Below are positions 1 through 12,682 of a stretch of DNA of 64,000 nt, piece after piece. Position 1 is the first letter of the stretch; the number at the start of each line of letters is the position of its first letter. Origin of the DNA: Rhodoferax sp. (lineage in GTDB: Bacteria; Pseudomonadota; Gammaproteobacteria; Burkholderiales; Burkholderiaceae_C); contig NZ_JAAFHA010000001.1 in NCBI RefSeq assembly GCF_010365055.1, positions 62,001 through 126,000 on the forward strand. The letters run 5' to 3'. The notes under the pieces were generated by a model. The model did no database searches. It was not told the DNA's origin and was given only the letters and a program-made list of their open reading frames with translations. The position numbers were made by a program, and so were the translations under genes.

Positions 1-930
1 AAGACCTTCCAGCCGATCCCCGGCTGGCGCGCCACCTTCTCCTCGGCCGGGCATATTCTGGGTGCCGCCAGTGTGTTGCTAGAAGTGGCCGGACGGCGGA
101 TTTTGTTCTCCGGCGACCTGGGCCGCCCCGACGACCTCATCATGAATCCCCCGGCCAATGCGCCAAACGCCGACACGGTCTTGATCGAGTCCACCTATGG
201 CGACCGCGAACACCCCAAAGAAGACGTGCTGGACGAACTGGCGCCTGCGCTGCAGCGGTTAGCCAAACGTGGCGGTGTGGCCGTGATTCCGGTGTTTGCA
301 GTGGGACGGGCCCAAGCCCTGCTGCACGCAATTCATCAACTCAAGCTGCGCGGCGACCTGCCCACCTCACTGCCGATTTTTCTGGACAGCCCGATGGCCG
401 TCCACAGCACCCATTTGTTTGAGCAGCATCTGGGTGAACACCGGCTCAGCAGCAAGGAAAGCCACGCCCTGACGCGCTCGGCCACCATGGTCAGCAGCAC
501 CGATGAGTCACGTGCCTTGGCCAGTCGGCACGGCCCGATGGTGATTCTGTCGGCCAGCGGCATGGCCACCGGCGGGCGGGTGCTGCATCATTTGGCCCAC
601 CACGCAAGCGATCATCGCAACATGATCATCCTGACCGGGTACCAAGCACCCGGGACCCGTGGCGCGACCATTGCCAGTGGCGCCAAGTCGGTGCGCTTGC
701 ACGGTCGCGAGGTTGAGATCAATGCCGAAGTTGTGCAATTGCAGTCAGCCTCCGCCCACGCCGATGCCAACCAGCTGTTGGCCTGGCTGCGCACCATGCC
801 CCAAGCGCCTAACCAAGTCTACGTGGTGCACGGCGAACTGGGCGCATCTGATGCACTTCGCCTGCGCATCAAGCATGAGTTGGGCTGGCGGGCCAGCATG
901 CCCGAACACGGTTCGACTTGGCCGACTTGA
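1..930 (+). CDS. beta-CASP metallo-beta-lactamase-fold RNA hydrolase, C-terminal part
   Basis: The reading frame is open from the first base, so the N-terminus, including the first metal-binding HxHxDH motif, lies outside the window. The visible 309 codons hold the rest of a metallo-beta-lactamase plus beta-CASP protein of the RNA-processing (CPSF/Ysh1-like) type. GHILGAASV sits at residues 18-26, followed by SGDLGRPDD, then a serine/threonine-rich STYGDREH segment, the beta-CASP signature around PVFAVGRAQ, the SASGMATGGRVLHH motif and a final histidine motif (SAHADANQLLAWL). Such proteins usually act as endo- or exoribonucleases in the cytoplasm; the exact substrate cannot be told. A GTG at 73 is not the start, because conserved sequence continues upstream of it. 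Confident on family, not on substrate. Confidence 0.9.
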   Translation, partial: KTFQPIPGWRATFSSAGHILGAASVLLEVAGRRILFSGDLGRPDDLIMNPPANAPNADTVLIESTYGDREHPKEDVLDELAPALQRLAKRGGVAVIPVFAVGRAQALLHAIHQLKLRGDLPTSLPIFLDSPMAVHSTHLFEQHLGEHRLSSKESHALTRSATMVSSTDESRALASRHGPMVILSASGMATGGRVLHHLAHHASDHRNMIILTGYQAPGTRGATIASGAKSVRLHGREVEINAEVVQLQSASAHADANQLLAWLRTMPQAPNQVYVVHGELGASDALRLRIKHELGWRASMPEHGSTWPT

Positions 931-943
931 GCCATCGCCCAAG

Positions 944-1339
944 TTATTGGCCGGGCGTCACCATGATGCTTTTGCGCAGGACCCCACCAGCCTCGACACC
1001 GCTTTGGACATTGCCCTCACCGAGAATGCGCGCCTGGCAAGCAATGCGATCGTCACCCTGGTGGGCATCACAGCGCCGCAGCGCATTCTGTTGGTACTGA
1101 TCAGGGGCCCCGGCGAGGGCACCGCGGCGGGCGGCGGCCAAAGCGTTTTTTGCCTCCAGGCGGCAGGTCGCGCGATCCTGGTTTGATTGTCCGCTGGCGC
1201 ACGCGGCCATGTCCTGGCGGTAGCGCGCCTGTGCGTCGCTTGGGGCACTGGGGCTGGCCGCCAGTGCGGCTGTGGCGCCCAGCACGGTGGCCGTTGCGGC
1301 AAGAACGAGATTGCGAATTGAAAGGCGAATGCGGGTCAT
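944..1339 (-). CDS. small secreted protein of unknown function
   Basis: A 131-residue protein with a clear Sec signal peptide (MTRIRLSIRNL, then a hydrophobic Ala/Val/Leu stretch ending near ALAA, residues 1-27). The mature part is hydrophilic, with two cysteine-containing segments (DMAACASG and RATCRLEAKNAL, and later RRCDAHQGDDRIAC), so one or two disulfides in the periplasm are possible. The start at 1339 was chosen over a longer frame to 1420 because AAAGGA lies 8 nt upstream of it and the signal peptide begins there. The gene converges on the beta-CASP gene, with 13 bp between the stops. I recognise the type as a conserved hypothetical of Comamonadaceae but know no function. Confidence 0.75.
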   Translation of the reverse strand: MTRIRLSIRNLVLAATATVLGATAALAASPSAPSDAQARYRQDMAACASGQSNQDRATCRLEAKNALAAARRGALAGAPDQYQQNALRRCDAHQGDDRIACQARILGEGNVQSGVEAGGVLRKSIMVTPGQ

Positions 1340-1460
1340 GATGAAATCCTTTGTTGGACGGGTTGACAAATGCGGCGGTCTCAAGCGTGGAGCGCTTATG
1401 AATACCGATGGGCGCATCAAGCGGCGGATCGGGTGGCTCCACGGGTACGGCTCAAGATTA

Positions 1461-1526
1461 AGACCAGAATCCTGCGCTGTCTGTGCGCTCGCGTACCGAA
1501 GCGGAAATCATCCCAAGTCGATCATC
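1461..1526 (+). repeat. left copy of a ~66-bp direct repeat bracketing the ADH/reductase pair
   Basis: The first 21 bases match the segment starting at 5224 with one difference (20 of 21), and shorter matching blocks follow (GGAAAT; GATC/AATC at the end). It lies 50 bp beyond the stop of the alcohol dehydrogenase gene. No gene is seen in 1340-1576. Confidence 0.6.
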
Positions 1527-1576
1527 GCTGACGCCACTGGAAAAGGCACCGGATTGAAGACGTCAGCCAGAACCCG

Positions 1577-2839
1577 TCACGGCCGCATTTTCGATTTTTT
1601 GCGTGCAGCGGGCTTGGGCAACACGGCGCGAAGCAGGGCCTCACAGCTTTCCACTGACATATAACGTGGCACCGGGTAATTGATGTCCGCTTCACGGCAG
1701 GCGGCTCTCGCCAACGCGGGAATGTCCGCTTTGCGCAGCTGGTTCAGTTGGCGGGGAATATCAAGGTCGCGGCTCAACGCGTCGATCGACGCCAGAAACT
1801 TCTGCGCCAGCACGTCCTCTTGCTCCCCCGAGGTCCCCACTTCGGCCTGCAGCGCCAGAACCGCGAGTTTATCGTTGACGGCAGGGCTGGAGAACCTCAG
1901 AACATGCGGCAGCATGATGGCATTGGCCAGACCATGCGGCGTGTGGTATTTGCCGCCGAGTTGATGGGCAATGGCGTGGACATTGCCAACATTGGCTCGT
2001 GTGAATGCCAGGCCGGCATAGGTCGCCGCCAGCGCCATTTGTTCGCGCGCTGCGAGGTTGTTGCCATCCCTGTAAACAGTACGCAAATTGTGATAGATCA
2101 TGCGCACCGCGGCCAGCGCCATGCGATCGGAGTCGTCGGTGGACCAGTGGCCGATGAAGGCTTCAATTGCATGGGTCAGCGCATCCATTCCGGTGGCGGC
2201 AGTGACATCGCGTGGCAGCCCGGTCATCAAGACGGGGTCCAGGGCCGCCATCTTTGGCACGATGCGGGTATCCGCAATCACCAATTTCTTCTTGTTTTCA
2301 AGGTCGGAAATGACAGCGGCCACGGTCACTTCAGAACCGGTGCCGGCGGTGGTTGGCACAGCATAGATGGGGACGGGTGCGTGCAAGCCCCGGAAATACC
2401 CGGCCAGGCTGCGCGGCGACTTGTGGTTGGCCGCCGACAGCCCGATGGCCTTGGCGGCATCCATCGCCGAGCCGCCGCCAAAGGCCACGATGGCGTCACA
2501 GCCCTCGGTCTTGAAGACTGCAATCCCCTTCTCGATCAGCGGGATGGGCGCGTCCTGGGTGATTTCATCAAACACCACAAAGGCCGTTCCGCCTTCGGTC
2601 AAGGCCTGGGTCAATCGATTCAGCAAGCCCAGACCGGAGACGATGGGGTCGGTGACGATCAGAACCTTGCGATGACCAAAGCCGCACACAGCCTGTCCCA
2701 GCCGCGCACTTGCGCCGGGTCCCACCAGCAGGGTGGGCTGCGGTATGGGCATTAGTCGCGTCACCAGACCCGCCGCCCGCATGACGGCCGAAAGCCCGAC
2801 CGAGCGCCCCAGGTCCGCGATCAGATTCATGGTCAACAT
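1577..2839 (-). CDS. iron-containing alcohol dehydrogenase
   Basis: A 420-residue group III (Fe-type) alcohol dehydrogenase expected to interconvert an alcohol and an aldehyde with NAD(P). The nucleotide-binding GGGSAMDAAK motif is at 121-130, the PTTAGTGSE motif at 162-170, and the four expected metal ligands are present as D219 and H223 (GMDALTHAIEAF) and H288 and H302 (VHAIAHQLGGKYHTPHG). The start at 2839 has AGGAG 5 nt upstream. About 30 extra residues precede the usual N-terminus, and the C-terminus is basic (RKKSKMRP). It is divergent from the acyl-ACP-reductase-like gene, which makes reduction of a fatty aldehyde, or the reverse, an attractive role. That role is inference from context. 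Confidence 0.9.
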   Translation of the reverse strand: MLTMNLIADLGRSVGLSAVMRAAGLVTRLMPIPQPTLLVGPGASARLGQAVCGFGHRKVLIVTDPIVSGLGLLNRLTQALTEGGTAFVVFDEITQDAPIPLIEKGIAVFKTEGCDAIVAFGGGSAMDAAKAIGLSAANHKSPRSLAGYFRGLHAPVPIYAVPTTAGTGSEVTVAAVISDLENKKKLVIADTRIVPKMAALDPVLMTGLPRDVTAATGMDALTHAIEAFIGHWSTDDSDRMALAAVRMIYHNLRTVYRDGNNLAAREQMALAATYAGLAFTRANVGNVHAIAHQLGGKYHTPHGLANAIMLPHVLRFSSPAVNDKLAVLALQAEVGTSGEQEDVLAQKFLASIDALSRDLDIPRQLNQLRKADIPALARAACREADINYPVPRYMSVESCEALLRAVLPKPAARKKSKMRP

Positions 2840-2955
2840 CGTTCTCCTGGTTGCGCCTGGTGGCCCCGGCGCTCAGAACTTGCCGCAAAACCAGCCAGTT
2901 GCGTCTGCCGAGGATTCAGTGAAATATGTCCAATTGAATGACAAGGAAGAAGGTA

Positions 2956-2979
2956 GCGGGTTGATCATGATCAACCCGC
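2956..2979. promoter_or_regulatory. perfect 24-bp palindrome between divergent genes, probable operator
   Basis: The half-site GCGGGTTGATCA is followed directly by its exact reverse complement. It lies 117 bp upstream of the alcohol dehydrogenase start and 49 bp upstream of the reductase start, in the only non-coding DNA between them. A dimeric repressor or activator controlling both genes is the simplest reading. No regulator gene is next to it. Confidence 0.6.
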
Positions 2980-3027
2980 GAATCCGTGGCCCGCGGCAAA
3001 GTGGAAATACCTTCACCGGACGGAGAC

Positions 3028-5160
3028 ATGAAAAGAGTCGTCAGCATCAGCCTGGGCGCGCGTGCCCAGGATTTTGAGTTTGTTGCGCCCTTCATGGGGC
3101 AGCAAATCAGTGTTCAGCGCCTGGGCACCGACGGCAGTACGAGCAAGGCCGTGAAACTGCTGAAACACTGGGAGAAAAGAGCCGACGTGCTGGGCTTGGG
3201 GGTCGCGAAAGACAGCTACAACGTCGGCTCCCGCCACTACATTGACAAAGACAGCGCCCGCATGGCAGGCGTCGTCAAGCGCATCCCGGTGACCACCGGG
3301 GGTCCCTTGAACGACATCCTGCAGGAATGGGCCTTGCGCCATGTGCAGATCAAGCTGGGCAATTATTTCGACAACGCCCGAACCTTGTTTTTTTCCGGCA
3401 TGCGCAACTACAAGCTGGCGACGTGCATGGCGGAGTACAGCCAGAACCTGCAGTTTGCCGATCCGCTGCTGCAGTTCGGGGTGCCCAAGCTCCTGACCTC
3501 GCTGAAGACCCTGGAGCTGTATGCCGCTGGTGCGCACTACGTATCCGACTGGGCGTTACCCCATGTGATGACCTGCGCCCCCGTCAAGCAGTGGAGCCGC
3601 TTCGTGCTGGGCAAGGCGATGCAAGAGGCGACCGTGATCGTGGCACCGGTGCATGAACTGGACGATTTCAGGGCGGAAGAACTGGCTGGCAAGACCCTCA
3701 TCACCACGTCGGTCAATGAGGAGCGGTTGGCTCAATTCAAGGAGAAAGGCGTCCACTTGGTGATTGATGGCGCGCCCAGAATGTTCGAGCACGTACTGGG
3801 ACCCAATATCCTGGATGCCATGATCATCGCCGCCAGCGGCAAGGACCCACAAGATCTGCTGGAGGACGATTACCTGGAAATCATCACCGACCTTCAGATG
3901 GAACCACGCCTTCTCTACCCGGGCGGATTCAAGCGCATCAACCGTTTTGCCTTCGTCATCCATCCCCTGTCGCAGGAGTATTTCAAGGTGGTCAAGCCCA
4001 TCGAGTTGCTGTCGCAGGTGTCGCCTCCCCTGTTCATGGACTCCCTGGAAAAGGTGCTGGCCTATGCCCCGCCCTTTGTTTATTCAAGGGTGACGGGGAT
4101 CAAGTCGCCCACGGGTGTGGAAGCTGAGGGGTGGCTGATTTCTGTCGGAGGAACACCCAGGGAGATCATGGCCCACAGCCCCGAATTTACCTACCGCCGC
4201 TTGCTGGCCGCCGCCGATATGGCCAAAAAGCTGGGCGCGCAGATCATGGGCCTGGGCGCTTTCACCAAGGTGGTGGGCGATGCGGGGCTGACCGTCGCCA
4301 AACGCGCGCCACTGCCCATCACGACGGGCAACAGCTACAGCGCCTCCGGGGCGCTGTGGGCCGCACATGATGCCCTGCTGCGCTTGCGGTTGCTGTCTGT
4401 GCCCCCGAGAGGACAGAAAGTGCAGTTCAAGGCGATGGTGGTCGGTGCCACCGGGGCTATTGGCTCGGTCTGCGCCCGCCTGCTGGCCACGTTCGCCGAG
4501 GAGCTTTACCTCGTCTCCCCCGAGACCGCCAAACTGCTCTCGCTCAAGGACTCCATCCTGAAAGAGACACCGGACGCGCGGCTGTTTCTGTCAGCCCGGA
4601 CCGACAAGGACATTGCCGGCATGGACATGATCGTGACCGCCACCTCCGGCGCCGGCAAGAAGGTGCTCGACATCATGAAGGTCAAGCCCGGCTGCGTCAT
4701 CACCGATGTGGCGCGCCCGCTGGACCTGCCGCCCGAGGAGGTCGTTAAGCGCCCGGATGTGCTGGTGATCGAATCCGGTGAAATCCAGCTGCCAGGGGAT
4801 GTCCAGATGAAGAACATCGGCCTGCCCAAAAACTTGGCCTATGCCTGCCTGGCCGAGACCATCGTGCTGGCGCTGGAGGGGCGGTTCGAGAACTACACGG
4901 TCGGCCGTGCCATCGAATGGGAAAAGGTGCGCGAGATCTACCGCCTGGGCCTGAAGCATGGCATGAAGCTGGCGGCAATCTCCGGCGTCAATGGGGTGTT
5001 TTCCGATGCCGACATTGAGCGTGTGCGCGAGCTGGCCTTGGCGGCGCGTGCCAGAAAAGCGCGGACAGCCCGAAAAGCGGGGGCCGTCAAACCGGTGGCC
5101 CCAGCGCGGAAAAAACCGGTAACCGCCGTGAAAAGAAAACCGAGGCTGCAAGCCGGATAG
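3028..5160 (+). CDS. long acyl-ACP-reductase-like oxidoreductase with N-terminal extension
   Basis: A 710-residue cytoplasmic protein. From about residue 300 on it resembles cyanobacterial fatty acyl-ACP reductase (AAR): a FAFVIHPLS start (F307), a GLGAFTKVV block, ITTGN at 431-435, the Rossmann dinucleotide site VGATGAIG at 472-479, and C556 in KPGCVITDV, which lines up with the catalytic cysteine region of AAR. Such enzymes reduce acyl-ACP or acyl-CoA to fatty aldehyde using NADPH. The first ~300 residues have no counterpart in the 340-residue cyanobacterial enzyme and I do not recognise them. The C-terminal ~35 residues are rich in Lys, Arg and Ala. ATG 3028 was preferred to GTG 2986 because GGAG precedes it. 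Databases may call such proteins shikimate-dehydrogenase-like. AAR-type activity is inference. Confidence 0.7.
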   Translation: MKRVVSISLGARAQDFEFVAPFMGQQISVQRLGTDGSTSKAVKLLKHWEKRADVLGLGVAKDSYNVGSRHYIDKDSARMAGVVKRIPVTTGGPLNDILQEWALRHVQIKLGNYFDNARTLFFSGMRNYKLATCMAEYSQNLQFADPLLQFGVPKLLTSLKTLELYAAGAHYVSDWALPHVMTCAPVKQWSRFVLGKAMQEATVIVAPVHELDDFRAEELAGKTLITTSVNEERLAQFKEKGVHLVIDGAPRMFEHVLGPNILDAMIIAASGKDPQDLLEDDYLEIITDLQMEPRLLYPGGFKRINRFAFVIHPLSQEYFKVVKPIELLSQVSPPLFMDSLEKVLAYAPPFVYSRVTGIKSPTGVEAEGWLISVGGTPREIMAHSPEFTYRRLLAAADMAKKLGAQIMGLGAFTKVVGDAGLTVAKRAPLPITTGNSYSASGALWAAHDALLRLRLLSVPPRGQKVQFKAMVVGATGAIGSVCARLLATFAEELYLVSPETAKLLSLKDSILKETPDARLFLSARTDKDIAGMDMIVTATSGAGKKVLDIMKVKPGCVITDVARPLDLPPEEVVKRPDVLVIESGEIQLPGDVQMKNIGLPKNLAYACLAETIVLALEGRFENYTVGRAIEWEKVREIYRLGLKHGMKLAAISGVNGVFSDADIERVRELALAARARKARTARKAGAVKPVAPARKKPVTAVKRKPRLQAG

Positions 5161-5223
5161 ATGCCGGCCTGCCATCCACAGCGGCTTCGCCGTGGCCGCC
5201 GATGCCCCACCAGCCCAAGACCG

Positions 5224-5290
5224 AGACCGGAATCCTGCGCTGTCGCTACGGTTTCGTGCCAAGCACGGAAATGGTCACCGATCGATAATC
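5224..5290 (+). repeat. right copy of the ~66-bp direct repeat
   Basis: This is the partner of 1461-1526, in the same orientation, 63 bp beyond the reductase stop. The shared core is AGACC(A/G)GAATCCTGCGCTGTC (21 bases). It falls in the 174-bp gap before the VIT1-family gene, whose leader it may form part of. Confidence 0.6.
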
Positions 5291-5334
5291 CAGGACAATG
5301 TCGAATCCACCTTGACCGCGACAACGCCTACCCC

Positions 5335-6036
5335 ATGAAGCTAAACCACCGCCACACTGAACGTCACCGCACCGACCGCATTGGCTGGCTGCGCGCGACC
5401 GTGCTGGGTGCCAACGACGGTATTGTTTCGACCGCCAGTCTGGTGGTCGGCGTGGCGGCGGCCAGTGCCAGCCATGGCAGTATTTTGCTGACTGGCATCG
5501 CCGGGCTGGTCGCGGGCGCCATGTCAATGGCCGCCGGTGAATATGTCTCGGTCCATTCGCAGGCCGACACCGAAAAGGCCGACCTGTCGCGTGAACGCGC
5601 CGAGCTCGAACTGGACCCCGCCTCGGAGCGACGTGAACTGGCAGCCATTTATGTCGCCCGGGGGCTGGAGCCCAGCCTGGCGCAGCAGGTGGCTGAGCAA
5701 TTGATGCAGCACGATGCGCTGGGCGCCCATGCCCGCGACGAGCTCGGCATCTCCGAGACGCTGAGCGCCCGGCCCATTCAGGCCGCGCTGGCGTCGGCGG
5801 CCAGCTTCGCCGTTGGTGCGGTGCTGCCGCTGGCCGTCACCGCGCTGGCGCCCGAGACCGGCCTGATTGCCTGGGTGTCCGCGACGTCGCTGGTCTTCCT
5901 GGCCTTGTTGGGTGCTGTCGCCGCCCGGGTTGGCGGCGCTGGCATTCTGGTGGGCGCCTGGCGCGTCACCTTCTGGGGCGCCCTGGCGATGGCGATCACG
6001 GCGGGTGTGGGGGCCCTGTTCGGTGCGGTCGTTTGA
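5335..6036 (+). CDS. VIT1/CCC1-family iron/manganese transporter
   Basis: A 233-residue inner-membrane protein of the VIT1/CCC1 family, which moves Fe2+ or Mn2+ out of the cytoplasm. The family signature is clear: RIGWLRATVLGANDGIVS at 16-33 leads into TM1, then a glycine-rich helix, the GAMSMAAGEYVSVHSQ motif near residue 62, a charged cytoplasmic loop with several Glu residues (metal-binding domain), and three further hydrophobic helices to the C-terminus. No ferritin-like domain is attached. ATG 5335 was chosen because the family N-terminus begins there; the open frame back to 5161 is not conserved-looking. The start has no strong ribosome-binding site. Confidence 0.9.
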   Translation: MKLNHRHTERHRTDRIGWLRATVLGANDGIVSTASLVVGVAAASASHGSILLTGIAGLVAGAMSMAAGEYVSVHSQADTEKADLSRERAELELDPASERRELAAIYVARGLEPSLAQQVAEQLMQHDALGAHARDELGISETLSARPIQAALASAASFAVGAVLPLAVTALAPETGLIAWVSATSLVFLALLGAVAARVGGAGILVGAWRVTFWGALAMAITAGVGALFGAVV

Positions 6037-6066
6037 TTCTTGAGCCTTGACCCGTACGGCGGATAT

Positions 6067-6089
6067 TCTGCTCAAGCAACTTGAGCAGA
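6067..6089 (+). terminator. hairpin downstream of the VIT1-family gene
   Basis: A perfect 10-bp stem (TCTGCTCAAG) closes a 3-nt CAA loop, 31 bp after the stop codon. No run of T follows, so it is either a Rho-type end, an mRNA stabiliser or a binding site. Confidence 0.45.
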
Positions 6090-6507
6090 GCGCATCCACG
6101 CGGAGTCGTTGATAAGCCATTCGGGGTGTTCTCCCGCAAAAAGGCTATCAAGCCCTGTTCAACAATCTCCGGTGCGCTCAGGCACACTGAAAAGGCATCA
6201 GCGTCCGATCTCACCTGGACTGGCACCAGGCTTTGCTTGTGATTTTGAGCGCATTGCCAGGGCGCCCATGGACGAAAACCCAAGCGAAACGTCGAGTAAC
6301 TTTACAGCGCTCATATGGCACTAGTACAAACCCCATATATATCAATGACTTTCACTTGGGGCATAGATTATGCATAGCCATGATTGATTTATGGTTATTT
6401 AAGTTTGCTAACCAAAATCAATAGTGATGCACCGGAAACCAGAGCCTCGTATGAAAGTTGTTTTGGGATCTGTGCCCCTTTCAATCGTTACTTCATGGAG
6501 GTACAAA
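6090..6507. other. gene-free region upstream of the PEP-CTERM gene, AT-rich in its second half
   Basis: There is no convincing gene. A minus-strand open frame (5996-6283, 95 codons) overlaps the VIT1 gene and matches nothing I know. At 6358-6374 there is a possible sigma-54 site, GG(6360-6361) and GC(6372-6373) spaced as in -24/-12 promoters and fitting GGCA...TGCA, with three mismatches to consensus. Sigma-54/PrsR control is known for several PEP-CTERM genes. The promoter call is tentative. Confidence 0.3.
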
Positions 6508-7800
6508 ATGTCTATAAAACTAGGAAGGCTAGCAGGGGCTGTGGCTCTCGCGTTTTGCACTGTTGTTGCATTGCCGGCGCTGGCTGCCACTGAGGCCCAG
6601 AAACAGGCGGCCATCGACAGCGGCTTGGCCTGGCTGGCCACCCAGCAGGCCGTTAACGGCAGCTGGAGCGGAACCGGCTACAACGCTGCAGATACCTCGT
6701 CGGCACTGTTGGCGTTTATCGAGCAAAAAGACAAGCCCTTGAGTTGGAACGGGCAAAACTACACCACCGCGGTCACCAATGGCCTCAATTACCTCATGAC
6801 GCAGGCAACCCAGGTGGGTGTTGGCACGCGTCCGGACGGCTTCAATGCGAACATTGGCGGATCCGGAAACGGGCTTTATTGGGGGGCAATAAGCGAAACG
6901 ACCTACATTTCTGGTATCGCCCTTTCCACGCTGGCCCGGGCGGTGTCATCCGGCTACGTCAGTGCCGCCACACCAATCACCAGTAGCAATGCAGCGGTGA
7001 ACGGCAAGACCTATGGTCAAGTGATCCAGGAGTCCGTGAATATGTACCTCGCCGGGCAGACAACAGCTGTGGGCGGCAACTACCGAGGTGGCTGGCATTA
7101 CTACCCGAGCCAGGGCGACGCCGACAACTCAACGACCCAGTGGGCTGCAATTGGCATGTTGATTGCCCAGAATGCCGGGGCAACCATTCCCCAGTACACC
7201 AAAGACGAGCTGAAATACTGGATGAACTATGTCCAGAACCCCAATGGTGGCTCGGGCTACAGCAGTATTTACGACTATGTCAACGAGTCCAAGACCGGCG
7301 GCTTGCTGGTGGAAATGGCGTTTACCGGCTATGACGGCGTCACGTCTGGCCCCGGTGATTACAGTGACAAAGCTGGCGCACTGGCGTTTCTCAATGCCAA
7401 TTGGCTAAACACCGCCAGCGGTACCTGGTTCGGCAACTTCGGTCACCCCTACGCCATGTGGTCGATCTACAAGGGGCTTGAATCGACCATTGGCCTGACA
7501 GACTCGACGACCATCACCAACCTGCACCCACAGGGCAGCAATCCCCTGGATGCGGGCCATACTTGGAACTGGTATGAAGACTACTCGCAATATCTGGTCG
7601 ACACCCAGAGCGGGGGTACCTGGCCCGGCTATGGATACTGGGGAGGGGCGATGGGAACGGCTTGGAATATCAACATTTTGAATGCCACGCAAGTCGGCCC
7701 TGGCCCGGGCCCGATAACTGTGCCCGAGCCAGGCTCCATGGCCTTGGTTGGATTGGCCTTGGCGGCGTTGACAGGTCTGCGTCGGCGCAAGAGCGCCTGA
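6508..7800 (+). CDS. PEP-CTERM-sorted secreted protein with toroid (prenyltransferase/cyclase-like) repeats
   Basis: A 430-residue exported protein. The Sec signal peptide covers residues 1-29 (hydrophobic core AVALAFCTVVALPALA). The body contains repeated helical units with Trp/Gly motifs (AIDSGLAWLATQQ, then WAAIGMLIAQNAG, then GALAFLNANWL, then GGTWPGYGYWGGAMGTAWNI), as in terpene-cyclase, prenyltransferase and complement-TED alpha-alpha toroids. The C-terminus is a textbook PEP-CTERM tail: VPEPGSMALVG, a hydrophobic helix, then RRRK. Such tails are cut by exosortase (EpsH/XrtA), and the protein then goes to the envelope or the exopolysaccharide matrix; the exosortase must be elsewhere. 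ATG 6508 was chosen for its GGAGG ribosome-binding site, 7 nt upstream. An upstream in-frame ATG at 6424 lacks one. Confidence 0.85.
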   Translation: MSIKLGRLAGAVALAFCTVVALPALAATEAQKQAAIDSGLAWLATQQAVNGSWSGTGYNAADTSSALLAFIEQKDKPLSWNGQNYTTAVTNGLNYLMTQATQVGVGTRPDGFNANIGGSGNGLYWGAISETTYISGIALSTLARAVSSGYVSAATPITSSNAAVNGKTYGQVIQESVNMYLAGQTTAVGGNYRGGWHYYPSQGDADNSTTQWAAIGMLIAQNAGATIPQYTKDELKYWMNYVQNPNGGSGYSSIYDYVNESKTGGLLVEMAFTGYDGVTSGPGDYSDKAGALAFLNANWLNTASGTWFGNFGHPYAMWSIYKGLESTIGLTDSTTITNLHPQGSNPLDAGHTWNWYEDYSQYLVDTQSGGTWPGYGYWGGAMGTAWNINILNATQVGPGPGPITVPEPGSMALVGLALAALTGLRRRKSA

Positions 7801-7819
7801 CGGCCGAAGGTTAGTGCGG

Positions 7820-7855
7820 CGAGAGCAGCTCCGATGATCGGAGCTGCTCTCGTTT
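7820..7855 (+). terminator. strong hairpin terminator after the PEP-CTERM gene
   Basis: A perfect 15-bp stem (CGAGAGCAGCTCCGA and its complement) with a TGA loop starts 19 bp after the stop. Only three T follow, so termination may be partial or the hairpin may protect the mRNA. Confidence 0.65.
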
Positions 7856-7945
7856 GCCGTCCCTCGTCAAATACCGTGCACATAGAATTGCATTTTCACC
7901 GCCTTGTCGGCCCTTGCCTGCTCAGACCACCCCACGAGAAGTTGA

Positions 7946-8758
7946 ATGACTTATTTTTTGTCGAATGCGCAGCGCGCACTGCTTGCCGTGTCTGCCGGTC
8001 TTGGTTTGCTGTGCGGCCAAGTCGTCGTCGCAGCGCCGGTCGCGTCAGCCCCCAGTCACAAGCAAGCCACATCGCCATTGCTGGAGTTTGCGGCGTCGGC
8101 TAACAGCACTACGGATCTCATGGTGCAGGGGGGTGCCTCCGGTGGGATGGCGCTGAACGCCATCAGCCGAGGGCGGTGGTCGAATGCCTGCAGCATCGCC
8201 ACCAATGTCCTGGCGCGCAAAGTGGCGGACGTCGATGCCCTCGGTGTCTTCGCTCTCTGCGCCGCGATTCGCAACGACGCGGCGGCGGCGAGCAGCGCGA
8301 TTGAACGACTGCGGGAAGCCGAACCATCTGCGTATTACGGCTTGCTGACTCAGGGCATCCTGGAACTCAAGGCAGGATCGCCGGAAAGGGCCGAAGCGGC
8401 TTATAAGACCGTCTTGCGGTCACGTACCGCTGACCCGCTGGCTTTGTATTTCAGCGGCGAGGCGCTGCATGCGCGGCGCCAGGATGCAGAGGCAATTGGG
8501 ACATTCAGGGCAGTGTTAAAGATTTGGCCTGATCATGCGCCGGCCCTGACAGCCGTTGCCCGTCTCTTGGCGGCTCCCAATGCCTCCAAGGAAAGCTTGA
8601 ATGAAGCCCTGGTGTTGACCGAACGCGCGACCACCATCGACCCAACCAACCAGGCTCACTGGCGGCTGCTGGCCGAGCTCTGCGATCGGACTGGGCAACA
8701 AAGTCGCGCAAATGCCATTGCCCTTCAGTGGCTGAGCGGTCCGCCCAAGGTCAAGTAA
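7946..8758 (+). CDS. exported TPR-repeat protein
   Basis: 270 residues, with a signal peptide at 1-30 (AQRALLAVSAGLGLLCGQVVVAAP). The mature part is made of helical pairs that fit tetratricopeptide repeats, clearest at LTQGILELKAGSPERAEAAYKTVL, LYFSGEALHARRQDAEAIGTFRAVLKIWPDHAPAL and the last repeat around LAELCDRTGQQSRANAIALQWL. TPR proteins are scaffolds. PEP-CTERM/exopolysaccharide systems often include a TPR lipoprotein (PrsT), but that protein is several times longer and there is no lipobox here. The gene follows the PEP-CTERM gene by 145 bp, across a hairpin. A link to PEP-CTERM export is therefore only suggested by position. GAGAAG precedes the ATG. Confidence 0.75.
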   Translation: MTYFLSNAQRALLAVSAGLGLLCGQVVVAAPVASAPSHKQATSPLLEFAASANSTTDLMVQGGASGGMALNAISRGRWSNACSIATNVLARKVADVDALGVFALCAAIRNDAAAASSAIERLREAEPSAYYGLLTQGILELKAGSPERAEAAYKTVLRSRTADPLALYFSGEALHARRQDAEAIGTFRAVLKIWPDHAPALTAVARLLAAPNASKESLNEALVLTERATTIDPTNQAHWRLLAELCDRTGQQSRANAIALQWLSGPPKVK

Positions 8759-8847
8759 AAACGCCTACCAATCTGATGATATCTTGGGCAGGCAGCCCAC
8801 TCTAGAAGCAACGAGGCGCTTGTGCGCGCGAGACTACCACCACAACA

Positions 8848-9786
8848 ATGACTGAATTCCTGACCGCCGCGTTCTACAAATTCGTTGAGTTGCCTGATTA
8901 CGCAGAGCTCAGAGCGCCGCTGCTCGCCTGCTGCGAAGGCAACGACGTCAAAGGCACCATTTTGCTGGCGACCGAGGGCATCAACAGCACGATTGCCGGA
9001 CCGGCGGCAGGCGTGCATGCCGTGCTGGCGTACCTGCGCCGTGACCCGCGTCTGGCTGACCTGCAGCACAAGGAATCATGGTCGGCCACAGCACCGTTTT
9101 ACCGGATGAAGGTGCGCATCAAGCGCGAGATCGTCACCATGGGCGTGCCGGGCATCGACCCGACCCTTGTGGTGGGCACCTATGTCAAACCGCAAGACTG
9201 GAACGCATTGATTGAAGACCCCGATGTGCTCGTCATCGACACGCGCAACGATTACGAGGTCGGCATTGGCAGCTTCGCGGGCGCCGTCAACCCGGACATC
9301 CAGAGTTTTTCCATGCTGCCGCAATGGCTTGCGCAAGCGCCAACCTTGCACCCGGCCAGCGGCAAGAAGCCCAAGGTCGCCATGTTTTGCACCGGCGGCA
9401 TCCGCTGCGAAAAGTCCACCGCCCTGCTGAGGGCGCAGGGCTTTGACGACGTCTATCACCTGGAGGGCGGTATCCTGAAGTATCTGGAGACGGTGCCAGA
9501 GGCGCAGAGCCTGTGGCAGGGCCAGTGTTTTGTATTTGATGAGCGGGTGTCGGTGGGCCACGGCCTGATACCGGGGCAGCACAATCTCTGCCGCGCCTGC
9601 CGGCAACCGCTGGCGGATGCCGACCTGGAATCACCCCTGTTTGAGGCGGGAGTGAGCTGCCCCAAATGCCATGCCAGCACCAGCGACGTTCAAAAGGAGG
9701 GCGCCCGCGAACGCCAGCGCCAATGGGAACTGGCCAAAGCCCGTCAACGAAGTCACATCGGGGCGAAGCTCAATACTATCAGTTAG
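8848..9786 (+). CDS. trhO: tRNA uridine(34) hydroxylase, rhodanese-domain family
   Basis: A 312-residue member of the TrhO (YceA) family, which hydroxylates U34 of certain tRNAs in an oxygen-dependent step toward 5-methoxyuridine or cmo5U. The N-terminal acylphosphatase-like domain ([18 protein letters not shown], about 34-51) is followed by a rhodanese domain ([16 protein letters not shown], about 126-141) with active cysteine C181 in CTGGIRCEK, and a C-terminal zinc-type segment (CRACRQPL... and SCPKCHAS). The last residues and the TAG stop (9784-9786) lie in a dispersed repeat, so the C-terminal tail has been rewritten by it. The gene is monocistronic and converges with the nitronate monooxygenase gene. 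Confidence 0.93.
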
Positions 9787-9828
9787 ATAGCTGCTTGCGC
9801 TTATTCGACGGGGGCTGCAGCCCGATTA
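9775..9828 (+). repeat. dispersed ~55-bp repeat, copy 1
   Basis: Contains TAGCTGCTTGCGC, a 12-bp variable spacer, then GGGGGCTGCAGCCCGATTA. It matches the other nine copies in the window in the order TAGCT-n-CGC-n-GGGGCTnnAGCC-nATTT. It carries the stop codons of both convergent genes: trhO (9784-9786) and the nitronate monooxygenase (9826-9828). Confidence 0.8.
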
Positions 9829-10791
9829 GGCATAATTTCTTGCCAACAGTCGGGCCCGCGCACTGGCATACTCGCGCTTGAGCTGAGCGACAAAATCGGC
9901 GGTGCTCTGAATCTTGGTGACGGCGCCAATGCCCTGACCACAGCCCCAGATGTCTTTCCAGGCCCGGGACTTGTCGCCGCCAAAGTTCATCTTGCTCGGG
10001 TCGCTTTCCGGCAGGTGCTCGGGGTCCAGGCCGGCATTGCGGATGCTGGGCGCCAGGTAGTTGCCGTGCACGCCCGTAAACAGGTTGCTGTACACGATGT
10101 CGTCCGAATTGCTGTCGACAATCGCCTGTTTGTAATCCTGGGCTGCCCGCGCTTCCTCGGTGGCGATGAAGGCGGAACCGATGTAGGCAAAATCCGCCCC
10201 ACAAGCTTGCGCCGCCAGCACGGCGTCGCCGCTGGCAATGGCACCGCTCAGGACCAGCGGGCCGTCAAACCACTGGCGAATTTCCTGAATCAAGGCAAAC
10301 GGACTCTTCAAGCCGGCATGGCCGCCGGCGCCGGCTGCCACCGCGATCAGGCCGTCGGCGCCTTTCTCGATCGCCTTGTGCGCATGCTTGTTGTTGATGA
10401 CGTCATGCAGCACCACGCCGCCGTAGGAGTGGGCGGCGGCGTTGATGTCCTCGCGCGCGCCCAACGACGTGATGATGATCGGCACCTGGTACTTGACGCA
10501 CAGGGCCATGTCGTGCTCCAGGCGGTCGTTGCTCTTGTGCACGATCTGGTTGATGGCAAAGGGTGCGGCCGGTTGGTCCGGGTGCGCCTGGTTGTAGGCG
10601 GCGAGCGCCTCGGTGATTTCGATCAGCCAGTCTTCCAGTTGCTCGGCCGGGCGCGCGTTCAAGGCCGGCATGGCGCCGACCACACCGGCGATGCACTGGG
10701 CAATCACCAGCTTGGGGTTGCTGATGATGAACAAGGGCGAGCCGATCACGGGGAACGGCAAGCGATTCAGGGGCGCAGGCAGGTGGGACAT
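9826..10791 (-). CDS. nitronate monooxygenase (2-nitropropane dioxygenase family)
   Basis: A 321-residue FMN-dependent enzyme of the nitronate monooxygenase family, which oxidises alkyl nitronates; the fold is a TIM barrel. Visible hallmarks are the N-terminal PVIGSPLFIISNPKLVIAQ, the flavin-site segment GLIAVAAGAGGHAG, the phosphate-binding VLSGAIASGDAVLAAQACGADFAYIGSAFIAT and the HDVINN block. The start at 10791 was preferred to 10851 because GGAG stands 9 nt before it, and the longer version would be encoded by the upstream dispersed repeat. The stop is inside repeat copy 1. The physiological substrate is not known for most such proteins. Confidence 0.88.
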   Translation of the reverse strand: MSHLPAPLNRLPFPVIGSPLFIISNPKLVIAQCIAGVVGAMPALNARPAEQLEDWLIEITEALAAYNQAHPDQPAAPFAINQIVHKSNDRLEHDMALCVKYQVPIIITSLGAREDINAAAHSYGGVVLHDVINNKHAHKAIEKGADGLIAVAAGAGGHAGLKSPFALIQEIRQWFDGPLVLSGAIASGDAVLAAQACGADFAYIGSAFIATEEARAAQDYKQAIVDSNSDDIVYSNLFTGVHGNYLAPSIRNAGLDPEHLPESDPSKMNFGGDKSRAWKDIWGCGQGIGAVTKIQSTADFVAQLKREYASARARLLARNYA

Positions 10792-10811
10792 CAATGCTCC
10801 GGCAATAGAGT

Positions 10812-10874
10812 AGTTTATAGATGAAAATAGCCGCCAGCCCTTGTCAGACAAGCGCGAGAAGCTATCAAATTAGA
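10812..10874 (-). repeat. dispersed repeat, copy 2
   Basis: Read on the minus strand: TTTGATAGCTTCTCGCGC, spacer, AAGGGCTGGCGGCTATTTT. It lies between the start of the nitronate monooxygenase gene and the stop of the acyl-CoA dehydrogenase gene. Confidence 0.75.
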
Positions 10875-10891
10875 CAGGAACAAGAATCAGG

Positions 10892-12682
10892 TCAGAACGC
10901 GTCCAAGGCCAGCGCCGTGACGCACTCGGCACCTTCCACAATGGCATCGCGCATGCCAGGCGCCTTGGTCAACAAATGGTCGGCATAAAAGCGCGCCGTG
11001 ACGATCTTGGCCTGCATGAAGGACACGTCGACGCCCTTGGCGATCTCGTCCTGTGCCAGCAGCAGCGCGCGCGCCAGTTGCCAACCGGCCATCAGGTTTC
11101 CCGCCAGCATCAGGTAGGGCACGCTGCCGGAAAACACATCTTGCGGCCGGGTCTTGGTGTTGCTCACCACAAACTCGACCACATCGACAAAGGCCAAGCG
11201 AGCGGCCTTGAGGCGCTTGGCCACGGCCAAGGCATCGGCGCCGCCACTCTTGCTTAATAGGGCTTCGGTCGCTTCGATCTGCGCAGCAATTCCCTTGGCC
11301 GTTTGGCCGCCGTCACGCGCGGTCTTGCGCCCGACCAGGTCATTGGCCTGGATGGCGGTCGTGCCCTCATAAATGGTCAGAATCTTGGCATCGCGGTAAT
11401 ACTGCGCGGCACCGGTTTCTTCGATGTAGCCCATGCCACCGTGCACCTGCACGCCCAGCGAGGTGACCTCCAGGCTCATCTCGGTGCTGTAGCCCTTGAC
11501 CAAAGGCACCATGAATTCATAGAACGCCTGGTTCTGTTTGCGCACGTCGGCATCGACGTGGTGATGCGCTGCGTCAAAGGCCGCAGCGGCCACGGTGGCC
11601 ATGGCGCGGCAGCCCTCGGTGTAGGCGCGCATGGTCATCAACATGCGTTTCACATCGGGGTGGTAGATGATGGTCGCGTTGGCAGGTGCTAGCGCATCGA
11701 CCGGACGGCTTTGCACCCGGTCTTTGGCAAAGGTCACCGCCTGCTGATACGAGCGCTCGGCAATGGCCACGCCCTGCACGCCGACGCCAAAGCGCGCGGC
11801 ATTCATCATGATGAACATGTATTCCAAACCGCGGTTTTCCTGGCCCACCAGGTAACCGAGGGCACCACCCTGGTCGCCAAACTGCAGCACCGCCGTCGGG
11901 CTGGCCTTGATGCCCATCTTGTGCTCGATGCTGACGCACTGCACATCGTTGCGTGCACCAAGCGAGCCGTCCTGGTTCACCAAGAATTTCGGCACGACAA
12001 ACAGGCTGATGCCCTTGACGCCTTCAGGCGCGCCCGTGACGCGGGCCAGCACCAGATGCACGATGTTCTCGGCCATGTCGTGCTCGCCCCAGGTGATGAA
12101 CACCTTGGTGCCAAACACCTTGTAGCTGCCGTCAGGCAGCGGTTCGGCCCGGCTGCGCACGGCGGCCAGGTCGCTGCCCGCCTGCGGCTCGGTCAGGTTC
12201 ATGGTGCCGGTCCATTTGCCGCTGACCAGGTTTTCAAGGTAGGTGGCCTTCAACTCGTCGGAACCGGCCGTCAGCAATGCTTCAATCGCGCCGTCAGTGA
12301 GCAAGGGGCAAAGGGCAAAACTCATGTTCGCCGCGTTCTGCATTTCGCCGCAGGCCGCACCAATGGTCTTGGGCAAGCCCTGGCCACCAAAGTCGACCGG
12401 GTGTTGCAGGCCCTGCCAGCCACCCTCCGCGAACTGGCGAAACGCCTCCTTGAAGCCGGGCGTGGCGGTGACGACGCCGTCTTTCCAGCTCGAGGGGTTT
12501 TTGTCACCTTCCCAGTTTAGCGGCGCCAACACCCCCTCATTGAACTTGGCCGCTTCTTCCAGCACGGCTTGCGCCGTGTCGAAACCGGCATCTTCAAAAC
12601 CTGGCAACTGGGCAATCTGTTCAATATCGGCAAGATACTTGAGATTGAACAGCATGTCTTTGAGGGGGGCAACGTAGCTCAT
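10892..12682 (-). CDS. acyl-CoA dehydrogenase (long, DmdC-like)
   Basis: A 596-residue FAD enzyme that introduces a double bond into an acyl-CoA and passes electrons to ETF, encoded just upstream. It is longer than classical acyl-CoA dehydrogenases (~380) and belongs to the ~600-residue group that includes 3-methylthiopropanoyl-CoA dehydrogenase (DmdC) and various FadE-like proteins. The middle domain has MNLTEPQAGSDLAAV and FGTKVFITWGEHDMAENIV. The C-terminal helical domain has VHGGMGYIEETGAAQYYRD and IYEGTTAIQ, in which the glutamate near 439 is a candidate for the catalytic base. The start at 12682 has GGAG upstream. A terminator separates it from etfA, so it may have its own promoter. The chain length of the substrate cannot be read from sequence. 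Confidence 0.9.
   Translation of the reverse strand: MSYVAPLKDMLFNLKYLADIEQIAQLPGFEDAGFDTAQAVLEEAAKFNEGVLAPLNWEGDKNPSSWKDGVVTATPGFKEAFRQFAEGGWQGLQHPVDFGGQGLPKTIGAACGEMQNAANMSFALCPLLTDGAIEALLTAGSDELKATYLENLVSGKWTGTMNLTEPQAGSDLAAVRSRAEPLPDGSYKVFGTKVFITWGEHDMAENIVHLVLARVTGAPEGVKGISLFVVPKFLVNQDGSLGARNDVQCVSIEHKMGIKASPTAVLQFGDQGGALGYLVGQENRGLEYMFIMMNAARFGVGVQGVAIAERSYQQAVTFAKDRVQSRPVDALAPANATIIYHPDVKRMLMTMRAYTEGCRAMATVAAAAFDAAHHHVDADVRKQNQAFYEFMVPLVKGYSTEMSLEVTSLGVQVHGGMGYIEETGAAQYYRDAKILTIYEGTTAIQANDLVGRKTARDGGQTAKGIAAQIEATEALLSKSGGADALAVAKRLKAARLAFVDVVEFVVSNTKTRPQDVFSGSVPYLMLAGNLMAGWQLARALLLAQDEIAKGVDVSFMQAKIVTARFYADHLLTKAPGMRDAIVEGAECVTALALDAF

Follow-up and report, generated by a model that had tools for sequence, protein, structure and literature searches.

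The closest described relatives of the system reported here are reductases of acyl thioesters. The cyanobacterial acyl-acyl carrier protein (ACP) reductase (AAR) of S. elongatus (structure 6JZQ; model TIGR04058) accepts the acyl group on C294 and carries a Gly-rich loop named in the same study (PMC7089970); its known partner is ADO. Studies of the thioester reductases PigE (prodigiosin) and TamH (tambjamine) indicate a Cys equivalent to C294 (PMC8341465, PMC9594044), and both proteins carry a fused class III aminotransferase. Here we analyse a 64,000-nucleotide stretch of Rhodoferax sp. (contig NZ_JAAFHA010000001.1, positions 62,001 to 126,000; hereafter the window), in which a two-module AAR-like reductase and an iron-containing alcohol dehydrogenase (Fe-ADH) are encoded divergently. 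On the strength of sequence and fold comparisons, we think it fairly probable that the reductase is an aldehyde-forming long-chain acyl-thioester reductase that would feed alcohol and wax ester formation through partner enzymes. The AAR-like chemistry is known; the architecture, the distribution and the partners are apparently new, and a literature search over titles and abstract openings found no description of a fusion between the N-terminal module (N-module) and AAR.

The C-terminal module (C-module) has the AAR fold by structure comparison, and the protein is 28% identical to the S. elongatus enzyme over 292 residues (phmmer E 1.1e-11 against 6JZQ), a likeness beyond chance. It reaches only 68.1 of the 449.7 bits required by the AAR equivalog TIGR04058 (E 8.4e-19), far under the cut-off. 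It differs from cyanobacterial AAR by its additional N-module, by replacement of R189 and Y247, and by its neighbors, which are the Fe-ADH and a VIT-family transporter instead of ADO. Among solved structures the best match is the PigE reductase domain 4PPM (phmmer E 1.1e-30). The PigE/TamH model NF053554 reaches 187 of 850 bits, over the reductase part only; the Cys equivalent to C294 is shared, whereas the Rhodoferax protein has no aminotransferase and carries the AAR-like N-module instead. A more distant relative, the TAD of the carmabin pathway (9E4S and others), shows 18% identity and lies within an amino acid adenylation domain protein; a literature search on it found no paper. AcrB/maFACR (PRK07201), FarA and FcrA share the proposed pathway position, and AcrB is also two-module. 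However, AcrB is described as SDR plus SDR and FcrA as HMG-CoA-reductase-like, and the Rhodoferax protein matched neither kind of model, the AcrB model NF005539 giving no match at E ≤ 1. The preliminary description of this locus, made from the DNA letters, had proposed an AAR-like C-terminal half and had named closer kinship to quinate/shikimate dehydrogenases as the alternative. Because the C-terminal half is clearly nearer to AAR in both sequence and fold searches, that alternative does not apply, and a quinate/shikimate dehydrogenase identity is ruled out by the profile and fold comparisons.

Which residue would accept the acyl group? In an alignment of 36 fused proteins, comprising the Rhodoferax protein and 35 of 39 homologous loci on genome contigs (L051 was excluded for one undetermined residue, and L065, L067 and L068 because they are incomplete), the blocks FAFVIHP, GLGAF, ITTGN, VGATGAIG and KPGC are all present as first described, and every residue in them is invariant or at least 90% conserved. 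C556, the Cys of the KPGC block, had been put forward as catalytic. It is a Cys in 35/36 fused proteins and in none of the 16 separate AARs and four PigE-type domains aligned with them, the separate AARs having Ala, Met, Thr or Ser at this position; C556 is thereby ruled out as the nucleophile. In contrast, the position of C607, which aligns with C294 in the FACFAE helix of AAR, is a Cys in 36/36 fused proteins, 16/16 separate AARs and 4/4 PigE-type domains. The Gly-rich loop 473-GATGAIG-479 corresponds to the NAD(P) loop of AAR, with its glycines kept in 17/17 fused rows. Of the three basic residues near the NADPH 2'-phosphate in AAR, R314 is kept as R627, R193 is K502 and R189 is P498; with Pro at the R189 site and Lys at R193, a preference for NADPH is not to be assumed.

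The N-module resisted assignment at the sequence level, as the preliminary description had noted for these approximately 300 residues: no Pfam or NCBIfam family matched, no PDB sequence scored better than E 0.17, and no match was found on plasmids. Its identity emerged from fold and from separate-gene homologues. By structure comparison its fold is closest to AAR, although it has lost the catalytic Cys and the Gly-rich loop, and fused N-modules contain no conserved Cys. The N-module profile matches 34 of the 296 sampled genomes in the phylum of G833, the Mycobacterium sp. genome behind locus L063 (phylum taken as Actinomycetota). G833 itself carries the fusion; in the other 33 genomes, all listed matches fall within frames of 120-344 residues. 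The separate N protein may be what is elsewhere named 'quinate 5-dehydrogenase', a name that no search here returned. We examined 20 regions, one each from 20 of these 33 genomes, and found a separate AAR-type frame downstream of the N gene on the same strand in 18 (none within the examined region of L108 and L109). The two genes are direct neighbors in 11 regions, with gaps of -152 to 105 bp, the largest overlap reflecting a mis-set start in L117; in seven, two further genes lie between them, a class III aminotransferase and a polyketide-cyclase-like protein (annotated on the representative L113). The separate genes thus present the same two modules in the same order. With hhalign, the N-module of the fusion matches the separate N protein over its full length (probability 100, E 1e-50), and the C-module matches the separate AAR in the same way (E 3.9e-77; the separate AAR alignment excludes the truncated L110 and L117). 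We conclude that the N-module is most likely an AAR paralogue that was once a separate subunit and is fused here; the fold match and the gene pairing are observed, and common origin and role would follow from them.

In a tree of 43 C-modules, the 17 fused rows cluster together with support (98/91); the fusion L019 and L020, which has AAR alone in a broken frame, branch just outside this group. Domain pieces shorter than ~230 residues were excluded (L021, L026, L071, L124 and L125), and long branches prevent the tree from placing cyanobacterial AAR or the PigE type. Also just outside the fused group is L126 (genome G377), a broken or unfused relative in which the AAR module spans two overlapping frames (8490-9685), with no N-module in frames of at least 90 aa within 17 kb. 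As further observations on the separate-gene regions, L098-L117 show a recurring block, e.g. L113:5673-9495, that reads coaX, a 207-aa gene, the N gene, optionally the aminotransferase and polyketide-cyclase-like genes, the AAR gene, greA and lysS. The ~207-aa gene (L101:6251-6871 and its cluster) stands before or overlaps the N gene in 15/20 regions and has no Pfam or NCBIfam match. The seven regions with the aminotransferase, whose genomes have no WS/DGAT, resemble a PigE-type route from acyl to amine that is divided among separate genes.

The fusion has a scattered distribution. Of 369 genomes sampled from the class, seven match the whole protein, full length only in the genome itself and in G230; G377 matches over the AAR part only, and four others match weakly, with best E values between 2.8e-8 and 4.2e-11, inside frames 900-3015 residues long. 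In a sample of the phylum, the N-module occurs in 3/398 genomes and is fused in all three, and within the genus 15/36 genomes, this one included, match the reductase. The 39 carrier genomes found in a scan for close homologues are one isolate and metagenome-assembled genomes labelled beta-, gamma- and deltaproteobacterial, myxobacterial, actinobacterial and, in one case, Acidobacteria; such assemblies may be incomplete. Two labels look doubtful, those of L033 (Bordetella parapertussis) and L044 (Acidobacteria), whose reductases are 79% and 74% identical to the Rhodoferax protein.

The divergent neighbor is an Fe-ADH as first described, its N- and C-domains scoring 159.4 and 169.4 bits, well above the Pfam cut-offs. 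No NCBIfam equivalog cut-off is reached. Within the genus, an orthologue (E 2.1e-176 or better, at least 67% identity) is present in 14 of the 15 reductase-bearing genomes and in none of the 21 others, where the best match reaches only 5.2e-76; the sole exception, G008, holds a reductase fragment only in a genome that is 82% complete. The matches of the 14 pairs lie 106-301 bp apart. Beyond the window, tblastn finds the ADH adjacent and divergent in 16/39 homologous loci (L065 lacks upstream sequence), and in L044 it lies ~6 kb from the reductase. Kinship among these genomes inflates both the co-occurrence and the adjacency counts. The expectation that the ADH accompanies homologues therefore stands for the genus, where it tracks the reductase, and not as a general rule. 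In five carriers without an adjacent Fe-ADH (L034, L036, L037, L041 and L059), an MFS transporter gene, annotated on L036, lies directly upstream on the same strand.

The link to wax esters comes from genome content. WS/DGAT (PF03007) is present in 39/39 carrier genomes of the scan, in 0/33 genomes with a separate N gene and in 5/24 genomes from other families of the order. As a marker within the genus it was rejected, being found in 15/15 genomes with the reductase but also in 17/21 without; only the class of WS/DGAT above 140 bits separates these groups (13/15 versus 7/21). PF07993 likewise failed as a marker of other reductases, and since it matched 60/60 genomes, NF005539 was used to score AcrB. 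It exceeds its cut-off in 39/54 carriers; three have partial matches only, and in 12, all of them with WS/DGAT, no match to AcrB reaches E ≤ 1e-60. Gene order in two actinobacterial loci also bears on this link. In L064, WS/DGAT, a gene resembling the N-half of AcrB (251 bits, cut-off 549) and the fusion are consecutive on one strand, and in L063 a related gene, with one stop in the matched stretch, lies directly upstream of the fusion. The N-half of maFACR is a reported fatty aldehyde reductase (PMC7573125), and the arrangement supports a route from acyl thioester to aldehyde, alcohol and wax ester.

We hypothesize the following mechanism. In the C-module, C607 would receive the acyl chain of acyl-CoA or acyl-ACP, and reduction by a nicotinamide cofactor in the Gly-rich loop would release this chain as a free aldehyde; alignment and fold suggest this mechanism, which is that of cyanobacterial AAR. 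The N-module, a probable AAR paralogue without Cys and Gly-rich loop, is most likely kept as a structural or product-guiding partner. As gene context suggests, the aldehyde would be reduced to alcohol by a partner, Fe-ADH here and the SDR resembling the AcrB N-half in the two actinobacterial relatives, and WS/DGAT would presumably esterify the alcohol.

Several observations weigh against this reading. Cofactor and pocket are not those of AAR, since 16/17 fused rows have Pro at the R189 position and R563 takes the place of Y247. Sequence support for the N-module as a paralogue is weak, hhalign of separate N against separate AAR giving E 0.032 (probability 1.6) and of fused N against fused C nothing meaningful. 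The 39 carriers are relatives from a single scan, and WS/DGAT is common in the genus anyway (32/36 genomes). In the 27 betaproteobacterial-type loci (L030-L051, L055, L057, L059, L061 and L067), adjacent ADH and AcrB occur together in 15, ADH alone in one, AcrB alone in none and neither in 11; with both in 15 loci and neither in 11, the ADH does not simply replace the aldehyde reductase of AcrB. The host genome itself encodes AcrB (1017.8 bits, cut-off 549), and ~4 kb away a WS/DGAT that scores 351.3 bits against a cut-off of 309.95; for this reason the AAR-like reductase is at most an additional route. Moreover, AAR-made aldehydes were reported to feed wax esters poorly in Acinetobacter (PMC5806253). 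The route to fatty alcohol or wax precursors first suggested for the gene pair would thus fit the WS/DGAT of all carriers and is qualified by the missing ADHs and by the AcrB of the host.

One alternative assigns the N-module an active part, as an enzyme or ligand sensor that may bind or reduce the product; the fusion would then form alcohol alone, as does the likewise two-module maFACR (PMC7573125), and the Fe-ADH would be incidental. The separate N proteins do keep near-strict motifs, GRSFGTN (19-20/20 per position) and SAVDR-G (18-20/20), which is more than a scaffold seems to need, but fused N-modules keep neither motif and no conserved Cys, and we regard this as unlikely. Still less probable is a substrate that is a special acyl-carrier intermediate, as for PigE and TamH. 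PigE is the best solved relative, and the aminotransferase between the N and AAR genes in seven of the 20 separate-gene regions recalls the PigE domain pair. However, no carrier protein, polyketide synthase or aminotransferase is found among eight neighbors in the window or 20 neighbors at other loci (two in each set without a match, to Pfam in the window and to any model elsewhere), and the WS/DGAT of all 39 carriers argues against such a substrate. The remaining alternative concerns the Fe-ADH, which might act oxidatively or on small alcohols, the two genes being neighbors only as one inherited regulated block. Its best models, all below cut-off, are lactaldehyde reductase, ErcA, choline dehydrogenase and threonine dehydrogenase, and many carriers have no adjacent ADH; yet ADH and reductase are co-inherited within the genus, where 21 genomes lack both, and share a short divergent promoter region, which makes this explanation improbable to us.

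That region contains TTGATCATGATCAA, the only exact match in the window to TTGAT-N4-ATCAA, which we take to be the FNR/Anr consensus; allowing one mismatch, the window holds four matches against 1.1 expected. No other intergenic region examined has a perfect palindrome as long as the surrounding one of 24 bp. Among 51 upstream regions, five match the box in at least 9/10 positions, against 0.16 expected from base shuffles; they belong to the window and to L030-L033, the loci nearest to it, and the other 46 do not match at 9/10. Counted from the start codon, the box (9/10) lies 67-70 bp upstream in L030, L031 and L032 and farther away in L033; L042 and L043 have 8/10, also farther away, and 9/10 is reached in no other genus member examined. 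In an alignment of four box-bearing upstream regions, 8/10 box positions are invariant versus 14/118 other columns. The box seems to serve the reductase gene, as it is present in L031 and L032, where no ADH is adjacent; as far as the box indicates, an FNR-type oxygen regulator may control this gene in the closest relatives of this Rhodoferax. A sigma-70 and terminator scan gave nothing above chance.

Both genes lie where they were first placed (Table 1). The open frame of the reductase begins at GTG 2986, but homologues align only from about residue 15 of that frame, so ATG 3028 was taken as the start; residues are numbered from it, as was C556 in the preliminary description. A VIT-family transporter frame (5161-6036) begins directly after the reductase stop, positions 6424-7800 encode a protein of 458 aa whose sole Pfam match is a PEP-CTERM motif, and Rfam at gathering scores gave no match in window positions 1-12000.

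Table 1 Features of the reductase locus (window coordinates)
Feature	Position	Strand	Remark
Fe-ADH, iron-containing alcohol dehydrogenase, 420 aa	1577..2839	-	Divergent neighbor; cut-offs of PF00465 and PF25137 exceeded by far
Divergent intergenic region, 188 bp	2840..3027		Between Fe-ADH and reductase
24-bp perfect palindrome with FNR/Anr-like box TTGATCATGATCAA at 2961-2974	2956..2979		Intergenic
Two-module AAR-like reductase, 710 aa	3028..5160	+	Start ATG 3028
N-module, residues 1-305	3028..3942	+	Degenerate AAR-like module; separate gene in another phylum
C-module, residues 306-665	3943..5022	+	AAR module
Gly-rich dinucleotide loop GATGAIG, residues 473-479	4444..4464	+	Aligned with 162-GATGDIG-168 of AAR
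C556 codon, earlier proposed catalytic Cys, not supported	4693..4695	+	Alignment
C607 codon, proposed acyl-accepting nucleophile	4846..4848	+	Aligned with C294 of AAR

A bolder proposal, which we hold to be speculative and rather unlikely, is that the pair of pseudo-AAR and AAR forms a further family of fatty acyl reductases for wax esters, made of separate subunits in one phylum and fused a single time in the ancestor of the proteins now found in proteobacteria and actinobacteria. In Rhodoferax-like bacteria, low oxygen would induce it through FNR together with a dedicated Fe-ADH, and the acyl groups would serve as an electron sink, as in a wax ester fermentation by bacteria. For Burkholderiales close to Rhodoferax ferrireducens, a survey of sediment has already pointed to a capacity for wax esters or triacylglycerol (PMC10351704).

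For making aldehydes, the single-gene form could be tried in place of cyanobacterial AAR. With the N-module, a reductase is kept together with an apparent worn-out copy of itself, the two being neighboring genes in one phylum and a single fused protein elsewhere, and the role of such a partner is thereby testable. Among bacteria with WS/DGAT, a 2025 study reports FarA in 1%, AcrB in 31% and FcrA in 26% (PMC11948995), figures by which at least ~42% would have none of the three; the term AAR does not occur in its main text. With WS/DGAT in 39/39 carriers and no AcrB match in 12/54, the AAR-type reductase is a ready candidate for WS/DGAT bacteria that lack FarA, AcrB and FcrA.

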